Virus record (IMG/VR): IMGVR_UViG_3300036715_000153
Span: 1-64,000 of that record
DNA length: 64,000 nt
Reading direction: 5' to 3' (one strand)
Source of the DNA: a virus
The notes under the pieces are model-generated. The model searched no databases, was not told the DNA's origin, and was given only the letters and a program-made list of their open reading frames with translations. Every line of letters begins with the position of its first letter. The stretch's first letter is position 1. This document shows, in pieces, positions 15,402 to 54,792 of this stretch. Both the position numbers and the translations under genes were made by a program.

Positions 15402-15926
15402 TTATAGTGAATTCTTAATAGTCTCTTTATCTACGTTAGGGTACAATGTATTAAGATCGCCCTTAACTAACGCAATAAGAAAGTCTACTTCGTTTTGGTT
15501 AACAGAGTGGAGAATGTTAGCAAATATCTTATCCTTAGTCTTTTTATCGACACCAGACTTCTTGGTCAACATAATGATTCTATTTAAGTTGTTGGATAAA
15601 GTCTGCGGAGCGAGTCCATTCGGCAACAAATGCGTTGGGTAAACGACATCAGAGAAATCATCCCATTCGCCATTCAGCCACAGCCCCATCAATACTACGA
15701 ATGCACGGTCATTGATATAACCTTTAATGATTTTGGTTTGAGATTCGACATCTGCTGCTGCGTCGATTAATTCTAGGATTTCTGGCACTAGTCTGCCTAC
15801 ATAATATGTCATTGGATCTTTCGGTGGTGTTATTATATCGCATTTAGTTAATACACTAGATTGCGTTCCTAATGCTATATCCAGCAACTTTAGTATCAAC
15901 TCATTCAAAGAAGTCAGTGAGATCAT
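15402..15926 (-). CDS. Helical T4-like protein next to DNA polymerase
   Basis: 174 aa, all-helical, with the C-terminal pattern NRIIMLTKKSGVDKKTKDKIFANILHSV and FLIALVKGDLNTLYPNVDKE. It resembles a family conserved in T4-like marine phages beside replication genes (possibly DUF6433). The ATG at 15926 is used because GAGAAAAAG precedes it; it overlaps the polymerase end. Confidence 0.6.
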   Translation of the reverse strand: MISLTSLNELILKLLDIALGTQSSVLTKCDIITPPKDPMTYYVGRLVPEILELIDAAADVESQTKIIKGYINDRAFVVLMGLWLNGEWDDFSDVVYPTHLLPNGLAPQTLSNNLNRIIMLTKKSGVDKKTKDKIFANILHSVNQNEVDFLIALVKGDLNTLYPNVDKETIKNSL

Positions 15927-16884
15927 TCTTTTTCTCAGTAGTCCAGCCAATCGCGTCAGTCACTCCTTGCATCGGGCCTAAGAATGCGGATTCGTACATC
16001 TTTCTTCGGTCGATGTATTTATCTATGTTTAGCTCAACTGGGTACGCACCATCTCCCCAACCAAATACATCTGTTCTGTATGGGCTAGGTTTCATATAAC
16101 AAAATTTAATCTTACCGCCACTCTTAATGGGAGCATATTGGGTGAGATTAGCCTTAGCTATAAAGTGATTGTGGGTCAATGCAGCCTTAACGTTTTGTGG
16201 CGTCCCGGGAGCATACAGCGTATCATTAGGAACGGCCCACTTTGCTAAGTCGTTCACACCTCTCGGAAATGATATAGTCTCTACGGGTAACGTGTTAAAT
16301 AATAATTCTGTTTTGTCTATTAATTTCCACAGCGATTCTTGATCTCTCTTAATAACTAACTCGAATGCCTCTGTTAATGTATCTCTACAGAACTTGGGTG
16401 TCGACGATCTGTTTGTTTCTAGTCCAGTAATAGATAACTTCGGCGTAGCATAACGAATTCCTTCGTTGTCGTGTACTAAGCAGAAGTACCTCTTTTTCTT
16501 GCCCGTGAAGCAGATCGTCGATATTACCTTCTCGCGCTTAAACGATAGTCGGTTCTCTGCGGTATTACACCTAGCCCAAATATCTTTACAAAACCCATCC
16601 AATACGTCTGCCAGCTTAGTGTCTGCAAACTGACATAAAAAGTTAATAGGATCTTTGGGTTTGAACTTCTTAACAAAACAATCTAGATTAAGGAAACATG
16701 AGTCTGTATCTGCAGCCAACGTATAGTCGTCTTCTGGGAATCCTAACTTATGAAAGTAATCATTTATCTTAGATTGTAAGGATAAGTTAGATACTTGACC
16801 AGACAGCGTAATCGCCTCAGCGTTGACTATATCATATAAAGCAAAGTACTGGCTGCCTATAGCTCCGTAGAGCGAATTTGCCAT
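15901..16884 (-). CDS. 43: Family B DNA polymerase gp43, C-terminal fragment
   Basis: Carries the rest of palm, fingers and thumb. It opens at polymerase motif B (NSLYGAIGSQYFALYD), then AEAITLSGQ and motif C AADTDSCFLNLD (DTDS, metal-binding aspartates), and ends LTDFFE, matching the T4 C-terminal clamp-binding tail. The ATG shown at 16884 is most likely intron sequence: a group I intron at 16882-17127 ends exactly at ATG|GCA. Splicing would add IKNR before ANSLYG and restore the catalytic lysine four residues before Asn. Where translation of this half begins is unclear. Confidence 0.85.
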   Translation of the reverse strand: MANSLYGAIGSQYFALYDIVNAEAITLSGQVSNLSLQSKINDYFHKLGFPEDDYTLAADTDSCFLNLDCFVKKFKPKDPINFLCQFADTKLADVLDGFCKDIWARCNTAENRLSFKREKVISTICFTGKKKRYFCLVHDNEGIRYATPKLSITGLETNRSSTPKFCRDTLTEAFELVIKRDQESLWKLIDKTELLFNTLPVETISFPRGVNDLAKWAVPNDTLYAPGTPQNVKAALTHNHFIAKANLTQYAPIKSGGKIKFCYMKPSPYRTDVFGWGDGAYPVELNIDKYIDRRKMYESAFLGPMQGVTDAIGWTTEKKNDLTDFFE

Positions 16885-17127
16885 TTGATGTTCAGAGGAA
16901 TTCGTTATTTTCCTCCCGCGTTTGCTGCTGTATATTCCTATACAGATCGGACTATATCTTCATCCTATTAATAGGAGTTCTGCATTTCGAGGCACTTGCC
17001 CCTACGCCTTTCGGCTAGTCTCTACACCTTCCCATATCAGGGCTTGGCTCGGTATTGTCCGTTCTGGAGTTCCACCGAATTAACAGAATTTTCATTAGAA
17101 ATTACTCTCTAATGCGCCACAATTTTA
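16882..17127 (-). ncRNA. Group I intron without ORF, in DNA polymerase gene
   Basis: About 246 nt. On the minus strand: CCGT|TAAAATTGTGGCG can form P1 with the U.G pair at the splice site; a P2 hairpin (CATTAG..CTAATG); the P3-P4-P5 core GGTGGAACTCC..GGACAATACCGAGCC; P7 as AGAGACTA with ATATAGTCC; P8; a P9 hairpin (CTGTATA..TATACAG); a P9.2 hairpin (GAGGAA..TTCCTC). The last base is G at 16882. The layout parallels the T4 td intron. An alternative 3' site at AACG|AATT also keeps the frame but would not restore the motif B lysine. Confidence 0.85.
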
Positions 17128-17171
17128 ACGGTTTTTAATCCCAGATCTTTGACAGCCAATCTTGAAATTGT
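17128..17171 (-). other. 43: Isolated 44-nt exon of DNA polymerase
   Basis: Between the HNH insertion and the intron lies AC plus 14 codons reading NFKIGCQRSGIKNR. Joined to the N-terminal fragment (..LLTE+Y) and to ANSLYG it gives a continuous polymerase of about 855 residues (T4 gp43 has 898), with Lys four residues before the Asn of motif B. It contains no ATG, GTG or TTG in frame. Confidence 0.65.
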
Positions 17172-17172
17172 C

Positions 17173-18393
17173 TTAGACAGACTTTCCTTTTTCCTCAAAA
17201 GCTCGTCTAATGGTATCGCTGTTAAATCTTCCAACATCTTCTCTCCTTATAATTGTTTTACCATTTGAATCACTAACATCATAATCGCACCACATCTTTA
17301 TTATAACACCAAATTGAGGATATGTACACCCGTCAAAATCAATTAAAAATTTCATACGTTCTTCATTGGTGTTGAAGTGAGCTTTAAACTTATTATTAAT
17401 TGATTTGGTCGATATCTCTGGGCCAAACACACAAACCTTGTTAAATGTTGATATTGAATCAAACAAATAGCAATCGAATAAAACGTAATAACTATTTGAT
17501 GCCCCAAGTATATAATGAGATGAATTGCGGTGTTCTTCCCTTGTTATAATCCCACGTTCGCCGGTTAACAAGTTCAGCGCAGTCACGTTATTTGGATTGT
17601 TCATTGATAATAAACCGGACTCTGAACCATACAGTCTACCAGGAACAAATCCTGATGGTATAATATCAACAATTGGATCGATTTTGATTTGGATTTCTTT
17701 GTTATTGTACCACCTTAAACGCGATTGAGCGACCGACAGAGCTTGTTTATATTCGTCAGAATGCCCTAGGCTATACCCTGGTGGTATGTTTTTATCGTCT
17801 TTTTCTAAATATAAATTGGGTAGTCCTGGTGATGAGTAAAGGATTTTACCACTAATACCATTATTCAACTTCATTAGTTCCTTTGTTTCGTCAGATCTCG
17901 AAGAACCTGTGTTTATGGGTATATAATCACCAGACGTGTACCTTATGTCATCGACACTTATATATAACCTATCTGTTTCGTCATCTTTGTTTTTTACACC
18001 GAGCATACCAGACGACCGTAAACTTGAATTGCGCTTCTGTTCATCTGATTGTCGTCTACCTTTATTAGATTTACTAATCTGTTCAGATATATAATGTCTA
18101 GCAAGTTCAAACAAAACAGACGTTTTTTTGTCTCCCGGTATAACACGTCGCATTTGGTTAAATGCAAACCACATTTTATCACCATATATCTTTGCTAACA
18201 TCCAGTGACAAATATAGTGTTCTCTACAAGTTAGCACCTTTATGTTGTTTGGATCAAACTCTAAAGACGGGTCAATTGACCTTGGTATAATATGATGTCG
18301 CTCTAATCCGGATTTTGGTGTATATATTCTATTTGGTATTGAATCTAAAAATTTATAATACCTGGTGTTATAATGATTACTTTTTATCTGCAT
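17173..18393 (-). CDS. HNH homing endonuclease with NUMOD-type region
   Basis: 406 aa. The HNH motif is ERHHIIPRSI..NNIKVLTCREHYICHWML (residues 31-66), as in T4 Mob-type enzymes. NKGRRQSDEQKRNSS (about 109-123) resembles the NUMOD3 DNA-binding repeat. The long C-terminal part (YDVSDSNGKTIIRREDVGRF) probably gives site specificity. It would cleave uninterrupted gp43 genes. It starts at the ATG at 18393, 35 bases after its own late box, and is in the same frame as the polymerase exon that follows its TAA. Confidence 0.85.
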   Translation of the reverse strand: MQIKSNHYNTRYYKFLDSIPNRIYTPKSGLERHHIIPRSIDPSLEFDPNNIKVLTCREHYICHWMLAKIYGDKMWFAFNQMRRVIPGDKKTSVLFELARHYISEQISKSNKGRRQSDEQKRNSSLRSSGMLGVKNKDDETDRLYISVDDIRYTSGDYIPINTGSSRSDETKELMKLNNGISGKILYSSPGLPNLYLEKDDKNIPPGYSLGHSDEYKQALSVAQSRLRWYNNKEIQIKIDPIVDIIPSGFVPGRLYGSESGLLSMNNPNNVTALNLLTGERGIITREEHRNSSHYILGASNSYYVLFDCYLFDSISTFNKVCVFGPEISTKSINNKFKAHFNTNEERMKFLIDFDGCTYPQFGVIIKMWCDYDVSDSNGKTIIRREDVGRFNSDTIRRAFEEKGKSV

Positions 18394-18442: not shown

Positions 18443-19987
18443 CTATTCTGTCAATAATCTCCGTCTTATTTCGGCATCAATAGACTCGTATTGTTTCTTT
18501 AGTGCCTTCATTTCGGTCTTCGCTTTAGATCTGTTATCCAGCACCTGTTTAATGAGCGTGGGAATAATACCAATCTTGTTTTTATAATACAGTTGACCGT
18601 TTGCTGCTATCGTCATGTCGTATTTCTTAAGCACATCAGTCATCTCACTAACGTCTTCCCACGCATTTAGAATACTGGTGAGATTCTTTCTATAGTATGG
18701 CGTTAACTCTTCTGGTACATCGTGCATACCAACCATAGTCTCGGGAGAGATGTTGCACGTAATAATCATCGAGGGATACAGTGAAGTTGCGTCGATGGTT
18801 ACAACGTTATCAAACAAACCAGCAGGTGGCTCTTTAACATACGCACCCTCATACGCAACTTCCTTAGCATTGTGTCTTTCTGGTGGGAGGATTATTCCAT
18901 CCTTGATAAGAGAGTTATACACCAAACAAGTCCATAGTTTAACAGGAGAAAATACGTTCTGATAATTTGTCTTTGCGTTATATGCTAGTTCAACCTGTAA
19001 CTGAATCATCTTTAACTTTGCATCCATGCGCACAACGAGGTCCACGTCAATTATGTTGTAATCATTGTGAAGCTGAGGATGTTGTAACCACAAGTCGTCG
19101 ATAGATCCTTCGAACTCTACCTTTGTTTCGCCTGCTCCTAATACTAACTCAGAGATATATCCCAAACGATACGACTCTTCATTACCCGGTGAATATTTCT
19201 TATACAACTCTTGATAGTCTAAATGACTAATGCCTGCGATGTCGTATTCGGTTGTCTTGGACATGTGGTCGCCAGACTCTTTTTCCCGTATAATTCCAAA
19301 CGGTGACAACTGCAATACTGTCTTATCACCCAGAACTCTTTTAATTCTGTTATGGATGTATGGTATATCGAATAACTTAGAATACCACCCAGAGATGATA
19401 TCGGGGTAGTCTGATTTCCAGAAAGTGATAAGTCTGGTCAACAGATCGGTCTCGTCTACGCATCTAACATATACGATATCATCTGCTATAACCTTAATGC
19501 GTTCCACTGTCGTTTTGCTTGTGCTGTATTCAGCAGTAGACCACGTACGAAACTTCTTATCGATCGTAGAGTAAATAGTTATTGCTGTTATCTCTTGAAG
19601 TGCTGTCATTGGGTCGGGGAACCCGGCGTCAGACCTAACCTCAATATCCAAGAAGAATGTATTAATAAGATTCGAATCATACTCGATATCGTCGGGGTAT
19701 GTATCTCTAGCCCACTGCATTTCCCAGTTACGAGTTCCGTGGATGATCATGCCACTCACACCATCATATCTCTTAATGGCGTCTCTGGCGTCTTGGGTTG
19801 TATCGTATACTGTGGGCCTTAGGTTTATATTGCCAGTAAGAGCCTTAAATCCGGTCTCGTCTCTAGTCGGGAAATATAGCGTAGGTGTAAGGTTACATTC
19901 TACTAGATGTTTACGAACACCATTCTCAATGTATCTGTGTAAGATATTGCCACGGTGCTCTTTAATGTACGTAGGAAACTTAGCCAA
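18443..19987 (-). CDS. 43: Family B DNA polymerase gp43, N-terminal fragment
   Basis: 514 aa with the N-terminal and 3'-5' exonuclease domains and part of the palm. ExoI is TFFLDIEVRSD (residues 109-119), ExoII is GWYSKLFDIPYIHNR, ExoIII is YNIIDVDLVVR, and polymerase motif A is TIDATSLYPSMI (near 400). The frame ends at TAG just after RRRLLTE where the HNH element is inserted. The start is TTG at 19987, placed after GAGGG inside a hairpin that may be a translational operator. T4 gp43 is 898 aa in one chain. Confidence 0.93.
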   Translation of the reverse strand: MAKFPTYIKEHRGNILHRYIENGVRKHLVECNLTPTLYFPTRDETGFKALTGNINLRPTVYDTTQDARDAIKRYDGVSGMIIHGTRNWEMQWARDTYPDDIEYDSNLINTFFLDIEVRSDAGFPDPMTALQEITAITIYSTIDKKFRTWSTAEYSTSKTTVERIKVIADDIVYVRCVDETDLLTRLITFWKSDYPDIISGWYSKLFDIPYIHNRIKRVLGDKTVLQLSPFGIIREKESGDHMSKTTEYDIAGISHLDYQELYKKYSPGNEESYRLGYISELVLGAGETKVEFEGSIDDLWLQHPQLHNDYNIIDVDLVVRMDAKLKMIQLQVELAYNAKTNYQNVFSPVKLWTCLVYNSLIKDGIILPPERHNAKEVAYEGAYVKEPPAGLFDNVVTIDATSLYPSMIITCNISPETMVGMHDVPEELTPYYRKNLTSILNAWEDVSEMTDVLKKYDMTIAANGQLYYKNKIGIIPTLIKQVLDNRSKAKTEMKALKKQYESIDAEIRRRLLTE

Positions 19988-32647: not shown

Positions 32648-33529
32648 TCACGTATTCATGCCGTTTCCAAGCAAATGCGCGTGGAGTCGACCGCTTACGT
32701 GATACCCATTATTTAGAGCCCGATAAACGATCCGTTTCGTTTCATCGGTTTCTTGACTTTCCTTAGTCGCCCCCATCGGCATCACAAACACCATATGATT
32801 AGATAGTCCGCCGTATAGTTCCTCATACGTCTTAATTGCTGTATCGAGTTCTGCCCATGCTTTGTCGTTATTGTTCATAACGAACTTTAGATCGGCAGTG
32901 TACCCTAGATGAAGTAGTTTGTGAATTACCTCGTAGTCTACTCCAGCCGGTTCCCCAGATACATATTTCAATTTAGGTGATATATTAAAGCAGACAGCGA
33001 TTCCGAATTCTTCGCTTATAAAGTTGACATACTTAACAAATTCTTCTTTAGGTGCAATGCTGCCGTTCGTCTCAATTTGAATAACCGTCGGAAAGTCCCC
33101 TCTGTCCAACATCACCGTGATCGTAGCCATAATAGACCTTTGTTGCATCATGGGTTCGCCGCCAGTAAAACACAAGTGCGGTGACTGCTGAGTGACTGGA
33201 TGTGGCTTGAAAGTCTTATTAGGCAGCAACGAATAGATCTTATCTGCTAACGTTTCTTCGGTGTAGTCTGTTGCAAGATGTTTATACTTAGCACTAACGC
33301 TGTAGTCGCTGTCGCATCCGTAATCTAGTACAGGTAAGTCTTCCATTTTACTGTACTGAGAAACATCGATATGGCGAATAACATACGTATCTGGTAATTC
33401 TGGGGACGCTTGCCCGAAACCCTTACATTGTTTGTTGCAGCCCATTACTCGGACCCAGACCGATGCAGTTCCGGTATATCTGCCTTCGCCTTGGAATGAA
33501 AAGAAAGTTTCACTTACACGTATCTTCAT
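32648..33529 (-). CDS. queE: 7-carboxy-7-deazaguanine synthase (radical SAM)
   Basis: 293 aa. FFSFQGEGRYTGTASVWVR opens the fold. Two cluster cysteines are in GCNKQCKGFG (30-39); the third is displaced to YGCDSDYS (about 70-77), an arrangement seen in phage QueE with an insert. FTGGEPMMQQ is the SAM-binding GGE motif, followed by ETNGS. It makes CDG from carboxytetrahydropterin. QueC, which would turn CDG into preQ0, is absent from the window. Confidence 0.92.
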   Translation of the reverse strand: MKIRVSETFFSFQGEGRYTGTASVWVRVMGCNKQCKGFGQASPELPDTYVIRHIDVSQYSKMEDLPVLDYGCDSDYSVSAKYKHLATDYTEETLADKIYSLLPNKTFKPHPVTQQSPHLCFTGGEPMMQQRSIMATITVMLDRGDFPTVIQIETNGSIAPKEEFVKYVNFISEEFGIAVCFNISPKLKYVSGEPAGVDYEVIHKLLHLGYTADLKFVMNNNDKAWAELDTAIKTYEELYGGLSNHMVFVMPMGATKESQETDETKRIVYRALNNGYHVSGRLHAHLLGNGMNT

Positions 33530-33585
33530 GTGACTGCCTTATTAATTAATTAAAATGGTATTGTAACATGTATTTTGGCATTAGT

Positions 33586-34026
33586 CTACACAGACCACGG
33601 AAACATAATCCAGTCTGCACAATTCTCCCTACGAACAAACTTCTTAAAGTAGTCTGGCATGTAAACATCAGAAGCAGTAGACTTATGAACTAGCGTTGCA
33701 AACTTTGTATCTTGTGGTAGCAACTCTGATAGTTCCCGTAGCGTGTGTCCGGAATCTGTTAGATCATCAACAACAAGCAATCCGCCTTCTGTGTATGAAG
33801 GAACGATGTTATCGTGATCCCGATTATCTCCATTCCCGCATTTTGCAGAGTATGAGATTAGTTCTAGTGGTAGACCTAGTTTTGCAGCGACGAGTGCTGC
33901 TGGGATCGTTCCACCAGATGCTACACCAATTACTTTAGAAAACGAACAACCGTCTTCCTTCGATAGAGCAACGATATGGTCAACACACGCTTCTACTTCC
34001 GCCCACGTCATATAAGTTTTTTTCAT
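33586..34026 (-). CDS. Phosphoribosyltransferase
   Basis: 146 aa of the type I PRTase fold, like bacterial xanthine-guanine enzymes. The PRPP loop is LLVVDDLTDSGHTL (about 83-96); IGVASGGTIPAALVAAKLG (33-51) is the pyrophosphate loop region. It could salvage guanine or a deazaguanine base to a nucleotide. Next to QueE, a role in the modified-base pathway is plausible but unproven. Confidence 0.82.
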   Translation of the reverse strand: MKKTYMTWAEVEACVDHIVALSKEDGCSFSKVIGVASGGTIPAALVAAKLGLPLELISYSAKCGNGDNRDHDNIVPSYTEGGLLVVDDLTDSGHTLRELSELLPQDTKFATLVHKSTASDVYMPDYFKKFVRRENCADWIMFPWSV

Positions 34027-36462: not shown

Positions 36463-36519
36463 CCTTTATTTGCAACTATTTGGAGTGGTTGTAAGTTGTT
36501 GATTATTAAAGTCGTAAAA

Positions 36520-36539
36520 AATCCCCATTTCTGGGGATT
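36520..36539 (-). terminator. Terminator of the tmRNA gene
   Basis: AATCCCC/GGGGATT stem with a 6-base loop, followed on the minus strand by TTTTTTAC. It ends the coding piece of the tmRNA. Confidence 0.85.
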
Positions 36540-36544
36540 AGTGA

Positions 36545-36890
36545 TTAGATTGGGTAATAAGGTTCTAATCGACCCCAAGCAGTTATTACGCTGCTAGTGC
36601 GTATGCGCCCATTGAGTCATTTGCGTTTAACAAATTGCTTGATTTACTGTCATCGCCTACAGTGTTGCATTCTTCGTTATCTCACGTCAGTCGATTCCAA
36701 TTCATCCCCATTATTAAGTATACTCGAAATCGCAACTCCCTGAGCCGTTTGCGTCTGGAATATACTTAATGGTGGAGATGGAGGCATCGAAGCCTCGTCC
36801 TGCATGCCTTCACTAAAAATGACGAGTCAAAGTCACAAGGACGAATGACTCGTGGGTACAACAATTCTGTCTACCATTAAGTCCTTACGA
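36545..36890 (-). ncRNA. ssrA: Circularly permuted (two-piece) tmRNA
   Basis: Minus strand 5' to 3': an acceptor piece ends at 36770 with GAGGC-TTCGAT-GCCTC (T arm), CATCTCC and ACCA. A 60-nt segment (36710-36769) follows, whose ends TTAAGTATA/TATACTTAA pair. The coding piece then starts at 36709 with GGGGATGAATTGGAATCGAC. GGGGATG pairs with CATCTCC over 7 bp and has the G3.U pair used for alanine charging. The tag frame (36624-36583) encodes ANDSMGAYALAA with two stops. A terminator follows. The T loop is one base short, and exact processed ends are not certain. Confidence 0.88.
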
Positions 36891-38558: not shown

Positions 38559-38635
38559 TAAATCAACTATCTGGAATCGAACCAGTCTCGCACTAATAAG
38601 TTAGCCGCTCTGCCGATGAGCTATTAGTTGATTTA
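38559..38635 (-). tRNA. tRNA-like RNA with 11-bp acceptor helix and short anticodon loop
   Basis: Normal D loop (GCTC-ATCGGCA-GAGC) and T loop (TTCGATT), but the anticodon stem GCTAA/TTAGT encloses only CTTA. The ends TAAATCAACTA and TAGTTGATTTA pair over 11 bp. No CCA is encoded. No anticodon can be read with confidence. Confidence 0.5.
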
Positions 38636-45859: not shown

Positions 45860-46954
45860 TTATTTAGTTTTGAGTATAGTCCTCGCCTTAGCTCGATATT
45901 CCGACATCGTTATGTTTGGGTACATTTCACGTGCAATGAGATATCTCTTAATAGTCGATCCGTCGATATTGAGAATTTTCTTTGCATCTGAGATAGAGCT
46001 GTATGATACTCCGTCGATAGTGACGGACTTACCTTTTAGTTTTCTTGCTGCGAGGCTGTTAATATCACATTGTTTTTTGTATTGCGTTAACCATTCATCG
46101 AACGAAGTTACTATTCCATCCTCTACATATTTCTTTATCAGTCGGTTGTCTGTATTATTTGCTATTGCTGCTTTGGATATCGACGAATATACTATGCAAT
46201 CGACCACAACAGATTTACTAGATGATTTAAGTCTGCTTTGATTATTATTCTCTTTTTCTAAATCAAGCCATTCCTTAAATGATTTATCACCTTGATAATT
46301 ACTGTATCGTTTGATGATTTTGTAAATCATACTCTTTTTAATGTTGTGTGTTTGAGCTACATCTAATATGGACGGGTATACTACACCGTCAATTTCAATA
46401 ATAGTTGCGTGTAGGGTCTTCCTGACTTCCTTGCTGCGTTTACTCAAGTCATATTCAAATTCGTGTACCGCTGTATCGCTTGAATATTCTGAATTATACT
46501 TTCTTAAATTTTGATACGATATCCCGGTTGCTTTAGTTGCATCCCTCATACATCCATATTCCAACCCATCAACTATAATTGGAACTGCAGACGGATTATC
46601 TCCACCAGACAGCGAATCTCTTTTAGCAATGCTAGCGTATTCGTATATGTGGGCAAACTCGTCTAAGTTAGACTCGTCGACTTCTTTAGTGTTACACATC
46701 CAAAACAACGCGTGAGCCATCTTAGATATTTCGTCTTTACTACCACATTCACGGAGCGCATCTAACAGAAGGTAATGGGCTTTGAGGTGATTGTACGGTG
46801 ACAGATATACTGTTTGGTCATTATCACCAAATATTGCCCGAGGATATACGTGATGCGACTCGTCATACTTATCTGGTACAACTTTATTATCCGAGCAAAA
46901 TTCTAAATATTTGGATAATTTGGCAGACGTGAAATTAAAGTTTAGTGTATTCAT
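45860..46954 (-). CDS. HNH endonuclease with NUMOD1-type repeats
   Basis: About 364 aa. The N-terminal HNH motif is ESHHVYPRAIF..QTVYLSPYNHLKAHYLL. Then come at least four DNA-binding repeats of NUMOD1 type (IIVDGLEYGCMRDATKATGIS; IDGVVYPSILDVAQTHNI; VVDCIVYSSISKAAIAN; IDGVSYSSISDAKKILNID). It lies between two virion genes as a free-standing homing gene. TTGACA-N17-TAGTAT (46963-46991) ends just before ATG 46954. Its TAA overlaps the late box of the next gene. Confidence 0.8.
   Translation of the reverse strand: MNTLNFNFTSAKLSKYLEFCSDNKVVPDKYDESHHVYPRAIFGDNDQTVYLSPYNHLKAHYLLLDALRECGSKDEISKMAHALFWMCNTKEVDESNLDEFAHIYEYASIAKRDSLSGGDNPSAVPIIVDGLEYGCMRDATKATGISYQNLRKYNSEYSSDTAVHEFEYDLSKRSKEVRKTLHATIIEIDGVVYPSILDVAQTHNIKKSMIYKIIKRYSNYQGDKSFKEWLDLEKENNNQSRLKSSSKSVVVDCIVYSSISKAAIANNTDNRLIKKYVEDGIVTSFDEWLTQYKKQCDINSLAARKLKGKSVTIDGVSYSSISDAKKILNIDGSTIKRYLIAREMYPNITMSEYRAKARTILKTK
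45861..45868 (-). promoter_or_regulatory. Late promoter box before tube-like gene
   Basis: ACTAAATA, 28 bases upstream of the 45833 start; it overlaps the last codons of the HNH gene. Confidence 0.65.
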
Positions 46955-47007
46955 ATTATCACATACTAACATTATTCGCATAGAATGTCAAATATTTAAG
47001 TCGTAGA

Positions 47008-52962: not shown

Positions 52963-53093
52963 TATTTAGATACCTGTTTAGAAATAGATTTACCCATAGA
53001 CTCAGATACTAACTTTTCAGTCTTAGCAACCTGTTCTTGTTTCTTTTGTTCTAGCGCGGCCTTAATTGCCGAAAGACTTGTATTGTCTGACAT
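52962..53093 (-). CDS. Small helical protein after portal gene, 43 aa
   Basis: Reads MSDNTSLSAIKAALEQKKQE and continues as one charged helix to ISKQVSK. In T4 the small core protein gp67 follows gene 20; this could be its counterpart. A late box variant (ACTAAATT) is 25 bases upstream. Confidence 0.6.
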   Translation of the reverse strand: MSDNTSLSAIKAALEQKKQEQVAKTEKLVSESMGKSISKQVSK

Positions 53094-53117
53094 AGTATAA
53101 TCCTTAAATATTTGTAT

Positions 53118-53125
53118 AATTTAGT
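53118..53125 (-). promoter_or_regulatory. Late promoter box variant
   Basis: ACTAAATT overlapping the end of the portal gene, 25 bases before the 43-aa gene. Confidence 0.45.
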
Positions 53126-54792
53126 TATTGTGGAGATTGATCATCTGGTGCAGCTGGCTCGTCGGTTGGAGCTGAATCTGGTTGCTGTGCCGGTGCTGCG
53201 GTATCTGCGAACTGTGTAGGTGCATCCGCGGCATCTGGCGGAGTTATTCCTTCATCGTCTATTTGTTTATTCATTTCATCGTATTCTTCGTCAGACATTA
53301 GTAAGATCTGTTTCATAACATATTCTTTAGAAACATACTTACCAACGAACATATCTGCCATCTGAACAGTAGTAAACCTCTCGCGGATAATCTCCGTCTC
53401 TTTTAACTCTGTGTAGAAACTATCCTTAGACCATTCAACAGAAAGTTGACGTTTGATATCTTCACTCTCTTCGGCCCTAATAATCTTCTTGACGATCAAC
53501 TGTGTAATTAATAAGTCGATCAACAACAAAGAAAACTTATTACGTAGTCTGTCTATAAACTTTTGAAACTTAATCTCATCGCGAGTAATTTCGGATGTTC
53601 TTCCGAGACCACCGACCATAGGAGCTTCATCACTAAGTCTAGACAACGGAACGTTCAGAGACTTATACAACTTCTTTTTCATTAACTCTAGGTCATCTAC
53701 TTCACCTAGATTAGCGCCAGACTCCAGCGTAGATATTTCGGTAGACTTACCATCCCCTCTACGTGGAATCCAAAAGTCCTCGAGCATCGACATATTACGT
53801 CTAGCGTCTTTGACTTCTCCTGTCAGTGCATCGTATGTTAAGTTCGTACGGAACTTATTCATCATGTCTTTCATATACTGCTCTGCCTTTTGTGGAGGCA
53901 TGTTACCTACGTCTACGTAGAAGATACGACGTTCTGGTGCACGAGCAATACGATACAAAACCATAGAATCTTCTAAGGTGCGTAAGTTATTCGCAGTCTT
54001 TAATGCTGGGTGTAAATATGAAAGAATACAAGAATACTCTTCGTCATATAAACCAGACGTAACGTATGCAATCGCGTCTGGTGCAATCTTAACAAGTTGA
54101 TCGATCGAGCCTAGCGATGAAGATCCGTTATATCCTGGGGCAGTTAATACCCCAGACATACCATTACCGCTATCGTTAATAGCAATAGTGGAACCCTTAC
54201 GAGCCGCCTGATATGTAAAGTATTCTTTCTTAGTCTTATTAGTCTCTACTCCAGTCTGGTTTTTAGACTTTTCAATTTCAACGACTCGTCTAATGGTAGT
54301 AGGACTGATATACCTGGCCTCAATCAGTCCTTCATTTTGATCCCAAATCTTATGGAAGTAGATACGTCCGTCGATATACCAGCGGCGGACTAAGTCGTAT
54401 GCCTTTTGATTAAACTGGATGCGAGTCATGACTTCGTCAAACTCGTTGGATATTTTATTCTTAATAGAGTTCGAAAACTTTAAGTCGTCGGTATTTAACT
54501 TAACAACATTACCTTCGGCGTCTTCAGACATCATCTCATTAACTATTTCGTCGATGGCATATGACACTTCAGGGATGCGCGATATATCCCTATATCTGCG
54601 GATTAACTCAACTTCGTTAGTAGACGCCGATGGGTCTAAGTCATACGAGAAGTTAACTCTGTTTGATTCTACTACGATAGCGCCGTCGGCGTTTGGTAAT
54701 ACAAAAGATTCGACTTCGGTAGATACGTCCATCTCCTTTTCGGGATTTTTTGTATAACCGAACATGTTTGAGATTTGTTCTAAAAGATTCAT
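53125..54792 (-). CDS. 20: Portal vertex protein gp20
   Basis: 555 aa (T4 524). Characteristic segments: [96 protein letters not shown]-type region (written here without the full run), and [17 protein letters not shown]. The Ala/Pro-rich C-terminal tail is long. Forms the dodecameric portal and the head-tail connector base. Confidence 0.95.
   Translation of the reverse strand: [555 protein letters not shown]

Follow-up and report, generated by a model that had tools for sequence, protein, structure and literature searches.

The window analysed here, bases 1–64000 of a 140,394-base IMG/VR virus record, contains a locus that raises the question of whether an uncultured phage encodes a tmRNA in circularly permuted, two-piece order, how such a gene relates to those of bacteria and other phages, and what it may do during infection. 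The record carries T4-like hallmarks (portal phrog_213, tail sheath phrog_23 and major head protein phrog_138), and its SbcCD-type nuclease subunits and DNA polymerase also fit a T4-like myovirus; the portal shares at most about 47% identity with GenBank phage portals. Phage genes flank the tmRNA gene on both sides, which places it inside the phage genome and not in host flank.

Other features of the window were recorded alongside. A group I intron (RF00028, 90 bits) at 16928–17137 (−) accompanies the intervals 15901–16884, 17173–18393 and 18443–19987, a locus in which a T4-like DNA polymerase gene is split in two, with an HNH/homing endonuclease ORF between the parts. Another homing-endonuclease-like ORF (phrog_655) occupies 45860–46981 (−), and a weak tRNA-like gene of 29.7 bits, with an uncertain anticodon, lies at 38562–38631 (−) in the phage tRNA cluster. 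At 32648–34026 (−), a QueE-like radical SAM protein adjoins a phosphoribosyltransferase, and the two may belong to a pathway for 7-deazaguanine modification of DNA.

Identity and anatomy of the gene

The earlier note had proposed a phage tmRNA in permuted order and a check with the permuted covariance models of Infernal. Both models gave matches well above the cut-off by cmscan against Rfam, on the minus strand, which the earlier note had not specified: RF01850 (beta_tmRNA) at 36874–36515, with 114.2 bits (gathering score 84), an E value of 5.3e-34 and full-length coverage of model positions 1–331, and RF04321 (tmRNA_permuted) at 36830–36586, with 97.0 bits and an E value of 1.4e-17. These matches and the phage gene context bear the proposal out: the acceptor half lies upstream of the coding half, with an intervening segment between them. 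The landmarks read from the letters were exact for the CCA end (36770), the 5′ end of the coding piece (36709) and the 60-nt segment with pairing ends, and the G3·U70 pair, the tag ANDSMGAYALAA with its two stops and the terminator were found again in the sequence. ARAGORN did not report this tmRNA gene. The features are as follows.

36770–36862 (−): tRNA-like acceptor piece, from Rfam alignments, comparison with bacterial beta tmRNA and the sequence, which leaves the 5′ end undefined
36781–36796 (−): T-arm, stem GAGGC/GCCTC, 6-nt loop TTCGAT and inverted closing pair C53-G61, from the sequence
36774–36780 (−): 3′ strand of the acceptor stem, CATCTCC, followed by ACCA (36773–36770), from the sequence, Rfam and the fold
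36710–36769 (−): intervening transcribed segment of 60 nt with paired ends, predicted to be removed, from the fold and phage-wide covariation
36703–36709 (−): 5′ strand of the acceptor stem, GGGGATG, with the coding-piece 5′ end at 36709, from the sequence, Rfam and the fold
36545–36709 (−): mRNA-like (coding) piece, 3′ end approximate, from the Rfam beta_tmRNA alignment
36583–36624 (−): tag frame ANDSMGAYALAA with stops TAA TAA, from the sequence and phage gene comparison
36516–36539 (−): intrinsic terminator, stem AATCCCC/GGGGATT followed by a T run, from the sequence and the 3′ hairpin of the beta_tmRNA model

All seven positions of GGGGATG and CATCTCC pair, G3·U70 included, and GUUGU (36862–36858) can pair with GCAAC of the coding piece. 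In the predicted fold, the acceptor helix, P2, the T-arm and the intervening helix form together, the ends of the intervening segment make a 13-bp helix, and in the precursor the leader pairs with A73 and A76 of the CCA end. The coding piece contains the D-loop-like GGAATCGAC, the beta-type stretch TAGGCGATGACAGTAAATCAAGC and a tag frame reading GCA AAT GAC ... GCA GCG TAA TAA, with the resume alanine codon and stop present. A search for a promoter belonging to the gene itself gave no convincing candidate, and the hairpin at 36516–36539 was not listed by a strict terminator scan.

We consider it highly probable that the locus encodes a functional tmRNA in two pieces and circularly permuted order, betaproteobacterial in structural type and carried by a T4-like phage. 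Function as a tmRNA, which we infer, is supported by covariation and preserved tags across phages.

Permuted tmRNAs of other phages and their hosts

The earlier note had also held that phage tmRNAs are rare and that none had been described as permuted. The latter is wrong: in 2022, Buchholz et al. reported that Melnitz, a T4-like phage of OM43, has its ssrA in two pieces. For this gene they argued early expression, in contrast to the late action that the earlier note suggested for the present one. The same study counts 402 genomes with tmRNA among 18,146 from phages, and 133 unique structures, of which 53 are two-piece (PMC9004378). Rarity is overstated, given that simple exact-pattern scans of IMG/VR yielded about 90 distinct permuted phage tmRNAs after removal of copies. 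Because permuted phage tmRNAs were described in 2022, the present gene is a good new example and not the first.

In our own search the Melnitz gene matched RF04321 at 113.4 bits, and MZ577096 annotates it as SsrA; it too is permuted and lies in a T4-like phage, one of about 141 kb. Its authors class it as alpha type, its intervening segment is long, its T-loop is unusual and it has a glutamine riboswitch beside it, whereas the present gene is of beta type, has a 60-nt segment and has no riboswitch match in Rfam beside it. Closer in type are the unannotated beta-type permuted tmRNAs that we found in two isolated Pseudomonas aeruginosa phages of the Samunavirus group, SM1 (118.6 bits) and UF_RH6 (118.8 bits):

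KU245542.1, about 54071–54370: tmRNA of SM1, tag ANDTSFDVRLAA
OQ383211.1, about 53010–53309: tmRNA of UF_RH6

Both differ from the present gene in a 7-nt T-loop, a longer intervening segment and the phage group that carries them. BLASTN of the window's tmRNA against phage isolates returned no relative, and SM1 was reached only via the sequence of a relative. Among 50 records searched in a first look for portal-based relatives, the sole permuted tmRNA over the cut-off belonged to a record that had entered via a tmRNA pattern and not via its portal. One-piece phage tmRNAs, such as those of the mycobacteriophage Bxz1 group and Bacillus phage G, have the standard gene order. These are also phage-encoded, and phages of this kind are listed in PMC4131195.

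The permuted form had further been read as pointing to a host lineage, and this reading is weak: beta-type permuted tmRNAs are carried by P. aeruginosa phages and an alpha-type one by Melnitz in its OM43 host. The tmRNA of P. aeruginosa itself is one-piece. Since phages of this one-piece host carry a permuted tmRNA, the permuted form is no host label and should not serve for host assignment.

The short T-loop, finder bias and descent

The best Rfam model for the gene, the betaproteobacterial permuted tmRNA (RF01850), shares with it the order, the helices, the GGCGA...GTAAATCAAGC stretch and the AND..ALAA tag. The T-loop and D-loop depart from the usual bacterial beta form: the T-arm, GAGGC-TTCGAT-GCCTC, has six loop bases and C53-G61 in place of the usual seven nucleotides closed by G53-C61, the D-loop is GGAATCGAC, and the acceptor-piece hairpin is longer. 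The earlier note had not mentioned the short T-loop, which is frequent among permuted tmRNAs of phages and rare in bacteria. The 7-nt T-loop with G53-C61, absent here, is a usual bacterial feature and no formal criterion of RF01850.

Because they were drawn from exact patterns, the T-loop counts show direction and not exact frequency: in an IMG/VR scan that did not require a loop length, roughly one in two distinct permuted genes has the 6-nt loop; all phage 6-nt T-loops matched have C-G or U-A at 53-61, and phage 7-nt T-loops have G-C there in all but one (A-U); the strict 6-nt pattern occurs 35 times in an 84,980-species genome collection, 13 of these being clearly permuted and mostly from Mesorhizobium and relatives; and the matching 7-nt pattern was found in 21 of 398 Pseudomonadota genomes. 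Among the genes used for the tree, all 12 bacterial ones of beta type have a 7-nt T-loop. In a tree built without the T-arm, there are at least 9 changes of loop length by well-supported branches and 21 by parsimony. Recurrence of the same variant in many independent phage genes led us to reject a degenerate copy or an assembly error as the source of the odd T-loop. As a separate observation, L083, L084 and other IMG/VR loci have tmRNA-like acceptor ends with a 6-nt T-loop and a pyrimidine–purine pair at 53-61, some in one-piece order.

Loop length also affects detection. ARAGORN finds every one of 35 phage permuted genes with a seven-base loop and 25 of 40 with a six-base loop, missing 15; therefore, surveys that rely on it undercount.

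As for the origin of the gene, the tmRNAs nearest to it by tree path include those of three T4-like records of about 165–174 kb (L346, L357 and L328), whose portals are also the closest found here (47–49% identity over the larger aligned part). The coincidence of near tmRNAs and closest portals in the same records suggests descent within a phage group, not recent capture, and is consistent with long residence in T4-like phages. Phage genes give the highest tmRNA identity, 69–71%, and none of the bacterial sequences compared is a close copy. That exchange of beta tmRNA has occurred follows from the bacterial beta genes, which branch at several points within the phage set, with at least 3 changes forced by well-supported branches; the trees are unrooted with a weak backbone and do not fix the direction of transfer. 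Bacterial two-piece tmRNA of beta type was found in 15 of 399 genomes sampled from the order Burkholderiales. It is conceivable, though in our view rather unlikely, that phages are the main reservoir of this type, that the bacterial forms were taken from them, perhaps repeatedly, and that phages altered the T-loop again and again.

Selection, proposed mechanism and alternatives

In a set of 41 distinct permuted genes from phages, the helix of the intervening segment reaches 89% pairing in the true register and shows many compensatory pairs; sliding it out of register lowers pairing to 36–55%. At acceptor positions 5-68, every one of the 111 genes compared has a standard pair, of GC, AT or CG type. 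A pattern search, which may misread a few, recognised tag frames in 84 of 92 permuted genes of phages, and nearly all end in LAA (62 of the 84), IAA, MAA or VAA; the tags vary in the middle and keep the degron end. LAA-like ends are typical of ClpXP-type degrons. We take these comparative patterns as evidence that processing, charging and tagging are under selection at the level of the phage group, as opposed to a measurement on this phage.

In general, tmRNAs are matured by RNase P, charged with alanine via G3·U70 and delivered by SmpB and EF-Tu, after which the tag is translated and the product degraded. For the present gene, transcription would begin upstream and end at the 36516 terminator, the 60-nt segment would be cut out by RNase P and 3′ nucleases of the host, and the two resulting RNAs would be joined by the acceptor and P2 helices. 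Pairing of a leader with 3′RCCA is reported to inhibit formation of the encounter complex in a recent RNase P study (PMC9433436); as A73 and A76 pair with the leader in the predicted precursor, it seems reasonable that 3′ trimming would precede RNase P cleavage. Host alanyl-tRNA synthetase would then read G3·U70 and charge the CCA end, and host EF-Tu and SmpB would deliver the charged tmRNA to stalled ribosomes; dependence on host SmpB is assumed because no SmpB gene was found in the virus record, which may be incomplete. Nascent peptides would gain (A)ANDSMGAYALAA for host proteolysis. A role in ribosome rescue during infection is plausible, and the phage would probably benefit by keeping free ribosomes available as host mRNA is degraded.

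Three other accounts were weighed. Under the first, which we judge improbable, the phage RNA would be a decoy or inhibitor that shuts down trans-translation in the host by binding its SmpB or ribosomes; the tmRNA of mycobacteriophage DS6A is little beyond the tRNA-like domain, RNA of that kind inhibits tmRNA (PMC4131195, PMC11915505), and the T-loop is altered here, but a decoy would have no need of the tag frame and double stop that are intact in this gene, nor of the frame recognisable in most related phage genes. Marginally less probable still is that tagging is the purpose and rescue secondary, with host or phage proteins sent to degradation for amino-acid recycling or regulation. For Melnitz, Buchholz et al. 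put forward a role of this kind (PMC9004378), and tags that differ in the middle while keeping the degron end would suit it, but it is without a known target and relaxed constraint would also yield tag variety. The third account, a host gene that was captured recently or is in decay and has no function, is very improbable. The divergent T-loop and D-loop and the ARAGORN miss might point to it, but the helices and tag are intact, the T-loop variant recurs in many phage genes, and the best identity lies with phage genes and not with any bacterial copy compared.

On the preferred reading, a working two-piece tmRNA, an uncultured T4-like phage carries a gene for translation rescue. Permuted phage tmRNAs are widespread and under-annotated, partly through finder misses of the short T-loop, and are untied to the form of the host tmRNA. 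Cultured phages such as SM1 open the role of phage tmRNA to direct testing.
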